Source: Chitinophaga sedimenti (GTDB lineage Bacteria > Bacteroidota > Bacteroidia > Chitinophagales > Chitinophagaceae). From it: a DNA stretch of 64,000 nt. Of the stretch, positions 7,638 to 60,283 are shown piece after piece. The notes under the pieces were generated by a model. That model was not told where the DNA came from, searched no databases, and worked only from the letters and a program-made list of their open reading frames with translations. How positions within the stretch are numbered: position 1 is the stretch's first letter; every line of letters begins with the position of its first letter. The stretch is from the NCBI RefSeq assembly GCF_023156195.1, contig NZ_JAKUKA010000001.1:4154001-4218000 (forward strand), in the 5' to 3' direction. Made by a program: the position numbers and the translations under genes.

Positions 7638-10600
7638 TTATTGTAAACCGATATTCACGCCGAGAATGATGGTACGTACCTGCGGATAATAACCGCTTTC
7701 CTGTTGGGGAGCACGGGCAGAGGGATCCGCCTCGGGGTCCCAGCCGATCCAGTTGGTAAAGGTGGCCAGGTTACGGCCGCTCAGGAACACGTTCATGTTA
7801 GCAATTTTATAACGTTGCAAAGCCTCTTTCGGTAAGTTGTAACTCAGGGTTACATCTTTAATGCGGATGTAGGACGACGACACCGGATATTCGTACCCGC
7901 GCGGGTTCTGGAATGCCAGTGACGCATACTGGCTGTTTTTGTTCTGCGCCGTCCAGTAGGGCAAATCTGCCGGCAGGTTAATGCGGCCATTCTGATCACG
8001 GTTGTCGTAAATCGGGTTCGGCTTTAAACCACCCTGCGATGTTTGTAGAAATACATTCAGGGTAAAGTCGCGGTACGTAAAGGTGTTCGTTAACCCTGCA
8101 AGGTACTTCGGCAGTTGTGTGCCCAGGTAAGTGCGGTCAGCCGTGGATATTCCTTTTACGCCATCGAGGTCTGCAAACTTCAGGTAGCCGGGCTTCGCAG
8201 TGGCGTCGCTGGAGAAGTCCTCCCCTTCCTGCCACACACCTGTCTTCCTGTAATCATACACGGCATTCAGTGATTTACCAATAAACAGCTTGTTCCCGAT
8301 ATCATCTTTATTATCTCCATACAGGTCTACAATTTCATTCCTGTTGAAGGAGATATTAAAGTTGGTCGTCCAGCCGAAATTACGGCGGCGGATATTTTCG
8401 CTATTGATGCTGATCTCGAGTCCCTTATTTGCCGTTTTGCCCACGTTGTCCAGGATACTGGTGTACCCCGAAATCACAGGAATACTGCGGCTCAGCAACA
8501 AATCGTAAGTATTGGTTTTGTACACCTCGATGCTGCCGCTCAATCGTGAATCGAGCAGGCCGAAGTCTACCCCGAGGTTAAGCCCCTGGTGCTTTCCCAA
8601 CGGAGATCTTTATTACCCATCGTGGATGGTGCAACGCCAATAGCGGTAACACCGTCATAGATGTAGGCAGATGTGGCAAACTGGCTGATGGTGCGATAAG
8701 GTGTAACACCCATATTACCGCTTAAACCATAACTGGCGCGCAGCTTCAGGTTGCTAACAGCGGTCACACTTTTCATAAAAGCTTCATTCGACAAATTCCA
8801 GCCTACCGCCACTGAGGGGAACGTGCCATATTTATTACCATCCCCAAAACCAGAGAAGCCATCGTGGCGTACGGTAGCGGTAAACAGGTAACGACTGTCG
8901 TAGTTGTAGTTCACCCGCGCCATCTGCGATACCAGCTGGCTCGCGCTGTTCGTGGAGGCCGTGAACTGGTTCTGCGCCGCGGAGAGATTGTGATACGTCA
9001 GCGCATCATTGATAAAAGTATTCGCGTTAGCAGTGGTAGATTTTGATCTTTCTTTCTGCGCACTGTACAGCAATGTTACGTCGAAATTATGCAGCTGAAT
9101 TGTTTTAGTGTACGACAGGATATTCTCTACCAGCCAGTTTACGGACTCTGAATTCACAACACTGGCAGTACCTCTCAGGTCGCCCATATCGCGGCCGGTA
9201 TATGATGCCGTGCCGCCGTTAATGAAGGCGCCGGATAAATTCAGTTTGTATTTTAATCCGCGGATAAAGGGCGACAATTCGAGATAGGTATTGCCACTTG
9301 CGTTGCGGCTGCGGTTCTGCTGGGGATTGTACAAACCAAGCAGCGGATTGGTGTACAGCGTTTCCGGGTTCATCGGGTAAATGGCGTATTTGCCATTGCT
9401 GCCGTACAAATCGCCATAAGGACTCATCACGCTGGCCATATACAGGTTCGCCTGTCCGCCATCATAATTATTATTCGTGAAAAACACATTGGTGCCGGAT
9501 TTCAGCCACGGCGTAAGATTCGCGTCCAGGTTGCTGCGCAAAGAGAAGCGGTTATATTGATATCCTTTCAGCACGCCTGTTTCTTTAAAGTATCCACCGG
9601 AGAGGTAGTACTTAACGGCTTCGGTACCACCAGAGATATTTACTTCGTGGTTGCTGATAATCCCCTGCCGTGTAATTTCATCCATCCAGTTGACCGACTG
9701 CCCCTTTTCATAGTTCGCCTGCTCGGCGAGATTGGGCACTACCGGGGATTGGAAATACCCGATTGCGCCGCGTAATCCGCATACTTCTGCACATATTGGG
9801 CAGGACTCATCGGCTCCATGACGTTCCCGCGATTTTCGACACCCACGTAACCGCTGTAGCTGATAGCAGGCTTACCGGTTTTACCACGTTTGGTGGTGAT
9901 GATCACCACGCCATTAGCGCCGCGCGCACCGTAGATCGCCGTGGCCGAAACATCTTTTAAAATATCAACCGAAGCAATATCAGAAGTAGGAATATCATTA
10001 AAGGAACCACCGAACGGCGCGCCATCAAGCACGATGAGCGGATTATTACTGGCGGTAATGGATTTTAGTCCGCGGATGTTGAAGGATGCCACTCTTCCCG
10101 GCGCGTTGCTGCCGGCAGCAATATTTACCCCGGCCACTACGCCCTGCATGGCCTGCAGTACGTTGGTAACAGGTAGTTTCGTAAACCTGCTGGCCGGGAT
10201 CGACGATACCGACCCCGTTACATCACTCCGTTTGCGGGTACCATAACCGACGACCACTACCTGTTCCAGCTGTGCACGGTCCTCTTTCAACGTAACGTCG
10301 ATCGCAGCACGTCTATTCACCGGTATCTTTTCCGTAGTGAAGCCCATGTAGCTGAACACCAGTGTTGCATTTACCGGTACGTTCTTCAATACGTACGTTC
10401 CCTGTGAACTTACGACCGTAGCCTGTTGCAGGCCCATCACCAATACCGTAGCCCCCGGCAGCGGGCCGCCTTTTCGTCACTCACTTTACCAGTAACGGTA
10501 ATGAGTGTGTCCAGGGCGGCAGGAGCTGCAATAATGGGGCGTGATCTCGTAATGATCATATTGTGTTCCACGGTGTAACCAATCGGCTGGTTTTTCAAGG

Positions 10601-19691: not shown

Positions 19692-19768
19692 ATGCAAAAT
19701 AAGTTCTTAGGTAGTGGACATATCCAAAAACGGGTCTGGTTCTTTGGATATTGTTTCCGCGTACAAAA

Positions 19769-20290
19769 CTATTCTTTTGCCAGTTTTAAATCGTCATCGA
19801 GTTCATACAATTTATAACGTTTAATCATCCCCGATACCCTGGTTATCCATATATCGCCCGCGCTGGAGTAACCGGAGTGCGACATTTTTTTGAGCCAGGC
19901 GGCGGTATCGGTCGTGCCTTTCAGCTGGGCGAACCATTTCTTTTTAGCGATCACTCTTGTAAAGTGTTCGTAAGAATCGGCGACGGATTTGTACTCCTTG
20001 TATTTGGACCTGTAGGTCGCATGTCGTTTGGCCAGGTTATTCTTGCCCACAATGCCGAAGTGGTTCTTCAGCATTTTTGCATTGCGGCTGGTGCCCATAC
20101 CGGACTCCAGCATCGCTACGCCCATAATCACACTGGCCGGGATACCGGTTTCCTGCATCAGGGAAACGGCTACCGGGGAGTACTCTTTAATGTAAGCCTT
20201 GCCGGTCCTCGCTTGCGCATGCGCAAACAGGGAGCTGACACAAAGCCCGCCGATGAGTAAATTCCTTCTGATATGTTTTCGAAGACGCAT
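19769..20290 (-). CDS. Glucosaminidase-domain protein (FlgJ/LytD-like peptidoglycan hydrolase)
   Basis: Secreted protein of about 173 residues. The start at 20290 gives MRLRKHIRRNLLIGGLCVSS followed by LFAHAQA, a standard signal peptide; starting at 20386 would put an unlikely extension in front. The domain matches mannosyl-glycoprotein endo-beta-N-acetylglucosaminidases: SPVAVSLMQETGIPASVIMG, AMLESGMGTS with the candidate catalytic Glu, KNHFGIVGK and YEHFTRVIAKKKWF. It likely cleaves the glycan strand of peptidoglycan during growth. Intact and monocistronic. Confidence 0.85.
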   Translation of the reverse strand: MRLRKHIRRNLLIGGLCVSSLFAHAQARTGKAYIKEYSPVAVSLMQETGIPASVIMGVAMLESGMGTSRNAKMLKNHFGIVGKNNLAKRHATYRSKYKEYKSVADSYEHFTRVIAKKKWFAQLKGTTDTAAWLKKMSHSGYSSAGDIWITRVSGMIKRYKLYELDDDLKLAKE

Positions 20291-20386
20291 CAAAGTTGAC
20301 AAATTATAGGTTGTACCGGGGGCAATATTAAGACAAATTGCAGAAAAAACGGATATATATGACATGAAAATGTAATGATTTAACAT

Positions 20387-20910
20387 TTTGCCGCTGTTCG
20401 GCCGGACATAAACGGATGGGTTACAGCCGGTTAGGGCAGTATGTTAAAAACAGGGAAGATTTCCACATTTAAAAAAATGATTACGGTTGAGACTGGTCAA
20501 AAAAGTGGTAAAGGAGACTGGATAAATTGGATTACCATGGGATAAGTCTGTCCGCAAGGGACGAGCCTGGCGAGTAATCCTCCGTAAGCTGTCAGGTCCT
20601 TCTACGTGTAAACCTTTACCCGGATTATTTAACAGGGGTGTAAACCTGGTTTAGGACGTGACAGGCGGTAGCACCGTTGCGCGATCGTTCAGACATACTA
20701 GGTTCATCCTAGGTTCATCCTAGGTTCAAGATAGGTTCGGGTTAGGTTCAGGAACCTAGCTTCAACCTAGGCACAACGAAGTATAAACGAACTATAAACG
20801 AAGGATGCAGCAGGGATGCTTATGGGGTCATTACAGCGGGGCTGAAGGGCGTAAAGGCGTTGAAGGGAGCGACGCAACGGCGGCTGGGAAGGGTTTTACG
20901 GCTGGTTGCC
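20387..20910. other. Intergenic region between the glucosaminidase gene and aspS
   Basis: No convincing coding frame. It holds an 11-bp repeat array (separate entry). The part at about 20540-20625 can fold: GTCC-GCAAG-GGAC near 20548-20560, and CCTGGC near 20568 can pair with GTCAGG near 20596. This may be a structured RNA or the glucosaminidase 5' leader. No known riboswitch was recognised. Confidence 0.4.
20698..20803. repeat. Degenerate 11-bp direct repeat array
   Basis: Five consecutive 11-bp units with core TAGGTTC begin at 20698, 20709, 20720, 20731 and 20742 (first two: CTAGGTTCATC). Inverted copies of the core (AACCTAG) follow around 20752-20770. A second family then appears, again at 11-bp steps: CACAACGAAGT, ATAAACGAACT, ATAAACGAAGG from about 20772. 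Unit length equals about one helical turn. Function is unknown. Confidence 0.8.
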
Positions 20911-20946
20911 AAAAAAGAAAAGCGGACCACCTGCCGGTGATCCGCT
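20911..20946 (-). terminator. Terminator of aspS
   Basis: Hairpin AGCGGA-CACC / GGTG-TCCGCT with one internal mismatch and a TGCC loop. On the minus strand it is followed by a T-rich run (TTTCTTTTTT). It lies 25 bp beyond the aspS stop. Confidence 0.75.
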
Positions 20947-20971
20947 TCCAATATGTACTTACTACCAAAGT

Positions 20972-22716
20972 CTATTTTTTCAATACCAGCTTGAGTTCGT
21001 CCAGTTGGGCCTGGTCGATTTCGCTGGGGGCATCGAGCATTACATCGCGGCCGGAGTTGTTTTTCGGGAAGGCGATGAAGTCGCGGATACTTTCTGAACC
21101 GCCGAGCAGGGAGCAAAGCCGGTCGAAACCAAAGGCGATGCCGCCGTGAGGAGGTGCACCGTACTCAAATGCGCCGAGCAGGAAACCGAATTTGTGGTTG
21201 GCTTCTTCGGGGCTCATACCCAGTGCGGCGAACATTTTTTCCTGCAGATCGCGCTGGTAAATACGGATAGAACCACCGCCGATCTCGGTGCCATTCAGCA
21301 CGATATCGTAAGCATTGGCTTTAATGTCCGCGTATTTGCTCAGGTCGTTCATCCACTCGATCTGCTCCGGTTTAGGGAAGTGAACGGGTGGTGACGGGCT
21401 ACCCAGCGGTTTTCTTCCTCCGCGTACTCGAACAGCGGGAAGTCGATCACCCACAGCGGAGCGTACACATTTTTGTCACGCAGGCCCAGGCGCTCGCCCA
21501 TTTCGAGACGCAGTTCGCTCATGGCTTTGCGGGTACGTTCTTCTTTACCGGCCAGCACCAGGATCAGGTCACCGGGTTCGGCTTTCGCCAGTTCCACGAA
21601 ACCTTTCAGTTTGGACTCGTCGAAAAATTTATCTACAGAGCTTTTCAGGCTGCCGTCGGCGCCGTAACGGATGTAGATGAGGCCACTCATGCCGATCTGC
21701 GGGCGTTTTACCCAGTCGGTGAGTTCGTCCAGCTGTTTACGGGTGTATTCGGCGCAACCTTTTGCGGCAATGGCCACTACCAGCTCTGCATCGTCGAACA
21801 CTTTAAAACCGTTGCCCTTAGCGGCTTCGGTAAAGTCTACCAGTTTCATTTCGAAACGGATATCCGGTTTATCGTTGCCGTAATATTTCATGGCATCGTC
21901 CCAGGTCATGCGCGGAAACGCTTCGCTGAACTCGATTCCCTTAATTTCTTTGAAGATGTATTTGGTCATGCCCTCAAACGTATTGAGGATGTCTTCCTGC
22001 TCCACGAAGCTCATTTCACAGTCGATCTGCGTGAACTCGCTGCCTGTCCGCACGCAAATCCTCGTCACGGAAGCATTTTACCACCTGGTAGTAACGGTCG
22101 TAACCGCTCACCATCAGCAACTGCTTAAACGTTTGCGGGCTTTGCGGCAGGGCGTAGAACTGGTTGTCGTTCATACGGCTGGGCACCACGAAGTCGCGCG
22201 CGCCTTCCGGGGTAGATTTGATCAGGAACGGCGTTTCGATGTCCATAAAGCCTTTGCCATCGAGGTAGTTGCGGGCAGCGCGGTTCACGCGGTAGCGCAG
22301 TTCGATGTTTTGCTTTACGGCGTTGCGGCGCAGATCGAGGTAGCGGAATTTCATCCGCAGCTCGTCGCCACCATCGGTATCGTCCTGGATGGTGAAAGGG
22401 GGCGTTTTGGCGCCGTTGAGTATAGTATATTCTGTAGCGGTGATTTCGATTTCACCGGTGGGGATATTTTTATTTTTAGCGGTGCGTTCGGTCACAGTTC
22501 CTTTCACTGGATCACGAACTCGCGGCCCAGGGGCTGCTCATCGAGCTGGGCGCTCAGGGTTTCGCCCAGCAACAGTTGTGTGATGCCGTAGCGGTCGCGC
22601 AGGTCAACGAAGGTGATGCTGCCAAATTTTCTTACCGTCTGAATCCAGCCGGCCAGCGTAACCTGCTGACCAACATGCTCCATGCGCAATTCTCCGCAAG
22701 TGTGCGATCTATACAT
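20972..22716 (-). CDS. aspS: Aspartyl-tRNA synthetase (four to five missing bases)
   Basis: Charges tRNA-Asp in the cytoplasm; about 582 residues when repaired, the normal bacterial length. N-terminal OB-fold anticodon domain ([20 protein letters not shown]), then class II motif 2 ([12 protein letters not shown]), the bacterial insertion domain, and motif 3 (GIAFGFDRL). Breaks: near 22507 (restored [16 protein letters not shown]), near 22036-22043 (the invariant RADRQPEFTQID needs one C and one G added) and near 21375-21377 ([14 protein letters not shown]). An essential single-copy gene cannot be this damaged in a living cell, so these are data errors. Confidence 0.95.
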
Positions 22717-40782: not shown

Positions 40783-41160
40783 AGGATTGTTCGGCTCCCG
40801 AAATCACCTCCTTTTTAGTTCGATTTTCATTCCATTTGATCACCGGCGATAGCATCCTCTGCTGTGTGTTGCCGGCAGCTCATTTTGACCATTTTTTTCC
40901 TGCTGTATCCCAAGAGAATATCGGGAGGATCGTAACTAATTGTAACTAAAATGTAGCTAATTAGCACTAAAACACTATGGCTTCAGTTACCATTCAGTTA
41001 GGATGCACTTAGGATGGTCTTAGGATGATGTGCCAATAAGCCCTGCTGTAAGGCAGCCGCCAGGCGCGGCCGTAGCTGCTCCAGTGCCCGCTATGGTAGC
41101 CTGTTTATGATATTTTTGTGTCATTTTGTTCTACAACGGGCCGAATTTTATAGGTCGTTC
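40783..41160. other. Intergenic region between divergent uvrA and sigma-factor genes
   Basis: No coding frame. It holds an 11-bp-spaced repeat array at 40931-41030 (separate entry) and a GC-rich block at about 41040-41100 with several GGC/GCC complementary stretches. The sigma-factor promoter follows at 41161-41190. Confidence 0.5.
40931..41030. repeat. Degenerate 11-bp-spaced repeat array
   Basis: First half: CTAA cores at 40936, 40946, 40957 and 40967 (spacing 10, 11, 10; examples GTAACTAA, GTAGCTAA). Second half: CAGTTACCATT, CAGTTAGGATG, CACTTAGGATG, TCTTAGGATGA with TTA/TTAGG cores at 40987, 40998, 41009 and 41020, spaced exactly 11. The two halves are roughly inverse complements (TTAG against CTAA). 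It resembles the array at 20698-20803 in period and core. Confidence 0.75.
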
Positions 41161-60208: not shown

Positions 60209-60283
60209 GCGCCTTGTTGCGGTTGAAGTGAGTGACACAGCGGCGGCTGAAAAAAGATCAGCGGCTGGTCACATTAAAAGCCA

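Follow-up and report, generated by a model that had tools for sequence, protein, structure and literature searches.

An array of 11-bp units located between a glucosaminidase gene and an aspS-type gene of Chitinophaga sedimenti, in the window (the whole stretch of 64,000 nucleotides that was analysed), is one of 20 similar copies dispersed along the genome. It very probably belongs to a dispersed element whose cores resemble protein binding sites. In the longer chain, the array forms the inside of a composite element that is non-coding and dispersed, in the manner of a REPIN or a MITE; the element would have spread by transposition, and recognition of the array by a DNA-binding protein would have preserved it. 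In our estimation this chain has about an even chance of being right as a whole.

Architecture of the array and its copies in the genome

The array was read directly from the sequence, and its parts and neighbours are collected in Table 1. The left-arm TAGGTTC cores start at 20699, 20710, 20721, 20732, and 20743, and the right-arm units are, in order, GAACCTAGCTT, CAACCTAGGCA, CAACGAAGTAT, AAACGAACTAT, and AAACGAAGGAT. Tandem Repeats Finder gave period 11 for the left-arm as well as the right-arm stretch. The lag-identity score of the intergenic region 20387-20971 reached a z of 8.8 at period 11, while 2000 dinucleotide-preserving shuffles of this region went no higher than 4.7 at that period, or 5.5 when all periods from 7 to 20 were considered. 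The exact 11-bp spacing described in an earlier note on this DNA is borne out, now with five units on the left and five on the right, and both the helical phasing and the non-coding nature of the array hold. The note had also distinguished two repeat families with inverted cores between them; the inverted cores are real, but the families are the two arms of a single dyad. It was also possible to see that the neighbouring aspS is read in three overlapping frames, the aspS frames of relatives being open; these breaks, together with an assembly completeness of 80.49, suggest insertion or deletion errors in the assembly.

Table 1. Features of the composite element in the window and its neighbouring genes.
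Feature	Positions	Strand	Basis or remark
Leader unit 1, GTGTAAACC-N6-CGGATTA	20606-20627	+	Pattern match 20608-20627, alignment of copies
Leader unit 2, GTGTAAACC...AGGACGTGACA	20638-20663	+	Alignment of copies
Whole leader	20606-20663	+	Upstream of left arm
Left arm, five TAGGTTC cores with 4-bp spacers, exact 11-bp period	20699-20749	+	Direct sequence reading
Dyad centre, 2 bp	20750-20751	.	Direct sequence reading
Right arm, five NAAC[GC][AT]A-NNAT units, exact 11-bp period, inverted with respect to left arm	20752-20806	-	
T, REP-like repeat facing the array, GCCGCCGTTGTGTCACTCMCTTCA with 2 mismatches	20861-20884	-	
Glucosaminidase (PF01832) gene	19769-20386	-	Array neighbour
aspS-type class II synthetase (PF00152/GAD), three frame-shifted pieces	20972-22507	-	Array neighbour

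The genome carrying the window (G000, 6.42 Mb) was searched for TAGGTTC-N4-TAGGTTC. There were 72 matches, and none with the reversed control. They group into 21 places, 20 of which are alike; the other one (L010) was left out of the copy set because its surroundings are unlike those of the rest. The left arm has five units in 17 of the 20 copies, six in two, and four in one, and the 5+2+5 layout is common to unlinked copies. Every position of the four innermost left cores is identical in 19-20 of the 20 copies, and every position of the outermost left core in 15-19, a fixity that is partly ascertainment, since two adjacent perfect cores were required by the search. In the two inner spacers the final two positions agree in just 9-11 of the 20; the outer left-arm spacers are mostly ATCC, and the right-arm consensus of Table 1 is that of all the copies. 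The conserved positions were contiguous over 29 arrays, some of them mutually related (Stouffer z 4.4).

According to crude ORF calls, the copies adjoin differing genes in mixed orientation (9 >>, 6 <<, 3 <>, and 2 ><), so that the role bound to aspS or to the hydrolase gene which had been proposed for the array is unsupported. With respect to replication the orientation is about 10:10, by our own reading of the GC skew, and a few copies lie near the switch points. As a post hoc observation on contig C1 of G000, the minimum distance between TAGGTTC elements is 68 kb and 8 of the 20 intervals measure 68-107 kb; random placement of 20 elements reaches that minimum spacing in 1% of cases. A search of viral contigs for TAGGTTCATYCTAGGTTC gave 0 matches.

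The left arm is preceded by a leader. At least one GTGTAAACC-like leader motif lies within 330 bp upstream in 16 of the 20 copies, the other four being without it, and repeated motifs are mostly 30-34 bp apart. The leader also stands ahead of arrays with other cores (G015, G020, G024, and G032). Its doublet pattern matches 7 of 79 Chitinophaga genomes (control 0), with 12 matches in G000, 6 in G015, 2 in G020, 3 in G032, 9 in G086, 14 in G089, and 14 in G094, the nine matched strings of G086 being identical; this leader is therefore absent from most Chitinophaga genomes. Outside the genus, the doublet was found in 2 of 294 genomes of the class, with a single match in each. We do not claim helical phasing between leader and centre: the Rayleigh p was 0.002 with 13 copies but 0.1 on distinct distances. 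For leader plus array, no target-site duplication, clean ends, or transposase was found.

The REP-like repeat T and the RAYT-like protein

The repeat T (GCCGCCGTTGTGTCACTCMCTTCA, up to 5 mismatches) is found within 450 bp of 7 of the 20 copies, the expectation being 1.2% per 900 bp, and is absent at that distance from the other 13. All 15 of the T copies lying within 450 bp of an array point inwards; L253, whose T is about 1 kb from its array, was excluded from this count. At L245 the interior is enclosed by an inverted pair of T, as in REPIN and BIME structures, but most other T-bearing copies have a single T nearby. The parts of the composite element are ordered (T) - leader - 11-bp dyad array - (inverted T). 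G015 has 135 copies of T and G000 has 23 when up to 2 mismatches are allowed. The stem, GCCGC then GCGGC, is present in some copies and missing in others. Further T copies were seen in the window at 60224-60247 (1 mismatch) and 10465-10488 (4 mismatches), with no 11-bp array near either.

Across 60 genomes of the genus, T tracks a RAYT-like protein: at least two T copies are present in 13 of 13 genomes with the protein versus 2 of 47 without it (Fisher 2e-11, phylogeny not corrected), and a single copy is present in another two of the 47. The NCBIfam model REP_Tyr_transpos gave E values of 3.1e-15 for the G000 protein and 9e-18 for that of G015, below the family cut-off, and the two genes share both neighbouring reading frames. 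RAYT-like proteins were seen in 13 of the 60 genomes, at 15 loci (L286-L300), several of them beside pyrH by our own reading. HxH is kept only at L286 (G000) and L287 (G015), and in both of these the tyrosine of YIHxNP, a motif taken from PMC6006769, is replaced; at the other 13 loci HxH is lost although T copies persist.

With REP sequences and their RAYT the present repeats share an intergenic, dispersed, many-copy distribution, besides the association of T with the protein. They differ from them in that the aligned T copies carry no GTAG-type tetranucleotide 5' of the hairpin foot, and no T (up to 5 mismatches) was found within 1.5 kb of the 15 RAYT-like loci; taking into account this last result and the catalytic motifs, which are mostly lost, we call T REP-like and not REP. 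REPINs have, to our knowledge, no interior 11-bp dyad array or leader. For the TnpA-REP subclass 2.6 of Bacteroidetes, PMC6006769 describes atypical flanking structures. The arrays themselves are independent of the RAYT-like protein: G007, G020, and G024 have arrays and no such protein, which rules out RAYT as the sole mobiliser.

Orthologous sites and the wider class of 11-bp arrays

Five orthologous sites were compared between G000 and its sister species G015, and at four of them G015 also has an 11-bp array, with other cores or in the opposite orientation. Downstream of aspS, G015 shows two other 11-bp arrays and then T (4 mismatches), while no array lies within 700 bp of the aspS locus in the other 28 genomes returned. 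The TAGGTTC arrays that both species carry at the PiT-rfbA site point in opposite directions, and the site is devoid of arrays in six other genomes; L024/L176 is a second pair of this kind. In the pair L130/L233 the cores are different and T adjoins both, and a change of core between the sister species at the same site is seen at L083 as well as at L233. The aquaporin site holds an array in G000 and is empty in G015; in G026, where the aquaporin gene has other neighbours, an array with a different core lies downstream of it. Three of the sites (aspS, PiT, and aquaporin) were picked blind to G015, and 2 of these 3 are co-occupied; the pairs L024/L176 and L130/L233 are biased, as they surfaced because the G015 locus had an array. 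In G015 arrays occur at a background density of roughly one per 86 kb, which amounts to about 1.6% of intergenic gaps if about 5000 gaps are assumed. Hot-spot insertion and inheritance with rewriting are both compatible with the co-occupied sites.

A period scan was carried out on 464 kb of G000, made up of 20 even samples and the window, which had been picked for its array. It gave 9 period-11 places at z≥6, versus 0 in five dinucleotide shuffles; among the other periods, 7-17 gave 0-1 places, 18 and 19 gave 3 each, and 22 (twice 11) gave 5. The ten G000 arrays at z≥5.5 all have their midpoints outside crude ORFs; of the arrays listed for the other samples, three overlap with a short ORF. Cores differ widely (e.g., TGCCCTTTNNC, AGTGCACGGGG, and TAATTCTACTN), several unrelated ones occurring within one genome. 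A second 11-bp array, with core TTAGGATGNNN, was seen in the window at 40966-41046, with GTAACTAATT-like units ahead of it at 40932-40962.

In 400 kb of G007 there were 6 period-11 places, several of them near-perfect palindromes. The G032 sample had 3, but periods 9, 22, and 27 also gave 3, so that 11 is not prominent there, and twenty Chitinophaga genomes sampled at 13-20 kb each (393 kb) gave 1 period-11 place versus 4 for period 21. From these counts it follows that array abundance differs strongly between species. Samples from outside the genus (279 kb, partly N) contained no genuine period-11 array, five rows having been discarded (four runs of N and one with a z of 5.0). The earlier note had recommended searching the genome and its relatives, holding that an array unique to this place, absent from relatives, and no more periodic than shuffled DNA would count against it. 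The array is not unique, such arrays are present in several congeners, and their periodicity exceeds that of shuffled sequence. Among the matches listed, no description of 11-bp arrays in Chitinophaga was found in the open-access literature.

Possible nature of the element

Considering the fixed 7-bp cores and the free 4-bp spacers, the cooperative protein binding suggested in the earlier note is plausible from the sequence. Each core would be the putative site of one protein subunit, the spacer being little read by the bound protein, and the subunits could occupy both arms cooperatively along a single helix face, coming together at the 2-bp dyad. The element may have spread through transposition, T perhaps by way of the RAYT-like protein, and the array would be retained through its recognition by a DNA-binding protein that belongs to the host or to a mobile element; the cores would then change between sister species along with their binding protein. 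DNA curvature, suggested at the same time, is unsupported, since runs of four or more A or T are absent from the array. A partial likeness is offered by the parC centromere of plasmid R1, where 11-bp direct repeats form two sets of five at one plasmid locus next to the par genes; here there are 20 dispersed chromosomal copies, and the arms are inverted. The TAACTGA heptamer repeats of Beggiatoaceae, Cyanobacteria, and some Bacteroidetes are likewise short intergenic direct repeats in many places of the genome, described in PMC4679880 as one fixed heptamer, often right upstream of start codons; unlike them, the present arrays have an 11-bp period, variable cores, a dyad, and a leader.

The arrays might instead serve an OmpR/PhoB-type response regulator as operators from which it controls the genes nearby, a regulon which we consider unlikely, though it fares better than the other alternatives. 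According to PMC4832192, PhoP of M. tuberculosis, a member of this family, recognises repeats of a 7-bp motif with a strictly required 4-bp spacer, and the series of motifs can extend to a trimer and a tetramer. The same 7+4 geometry in direct repeat, extendable beyond two units, is found here exactly, with fixed cores and in 20 copies. However, the present arrays have five plus five units with a dyad, their context is mixed and, judged from crude ORF calls, does not look promoter-bound, one genome holds several unrelated cores, and the arrays are tied to a leader and to the REP-like T. The mixed gene orientation, the about even orientation with respect to the replichores, and the cores that change between sisters speak for a dispersed and probably mobile element rather than a regulon.

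It is improbable that the array represents the subterminal sites of an autonomous transposon, at which the transposon's own transposase binds, with the copies as deletion derivatives. An IS3-family gene pair lies inside the leader at L011, a related pair is found in the same order just upstream of leader and array at L070 (G015), and five leader copies of G094 lie no more than about 320 bp from where a contig begins, as happens at the border of a long repeat. At L011, however, leader units flank the IS on both sides, which looks like an insertion, and by our own frame reading the leader loci L054, L057, L062, L063, and L077 have no such gene. A remnant of the L011 gene pair was seen at L029.

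The inverted arms would also allow a long transcript hairpin, acting as a 3' end, a processing site, or a small RNA. Against 200 shuffles the window copy folds better (z -3.8), and some G007 arrays are near-perfect palindromes, but in a permutation test of Watson-Crick pairs over the 20 copies of G000, arms from the same copy did not pair better than arms taken from different copies (core p 0.34, spacer p 0.64). In addition, GA is often kept in right-arm cores where pairing needs CT, and the 5 Rfam matches in 19700-21200 are none of them near the gathering score. The near-fixed 7-bp cores, the variable 4-bp spacers, and the lack of arm covariation argue against a selected RNA hairpin, which is unsupported and, as an account of the array, very improbable.

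Chance tandem duplication, or an extreme of the roughly 11-bp periodicity of bacterial intergenic DNA (seen near 11 bp for ApA/TpT in E. coli, PMC516772), is the least credible account even if some arrays are short and single in the sample, since the arrays are near-exact unit repeats, unlike AA/TT periodicity, shuffles do not reproduce their number, unlinked copies share one layout, and conservation is block-like.

Returning to the dispersed element with a protein-site interior, we put forward only tentatively a Chitinophaga class of elements in which the 11-bp period, and often the genomic place, is kept while the core or the orientation differs between sister species (four of the five orthologous sites compared), the arrays being putative scaffolds for co-changing cooperative DNA-binding proteins. 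If true, this would be a protein-addressed repeat system linked to REP/RAYT yet independent of it, self-spreading or chromosome-organising. The arrays would be ready-made baits, offering ten sites on the same side of the helix in numerous copies, with several core variants independent of one another, and a pull-down could identify the partner protein and reveal a joint change of repeat and protein. REP-like termini around an elaborate phased interior would then also bear on the origin and upkeep of intergenic mosaic elements.

Other repeated structures were seen close to the arrays. At L255, in G015, a unit of about 270 bp that contains an 11-bp array is repeated three times behind one T. L116, L129, and L130 carry strings of about 10-bp units containing TGTCG, which at L129 and L130 are placed between T and the 11-bp array.
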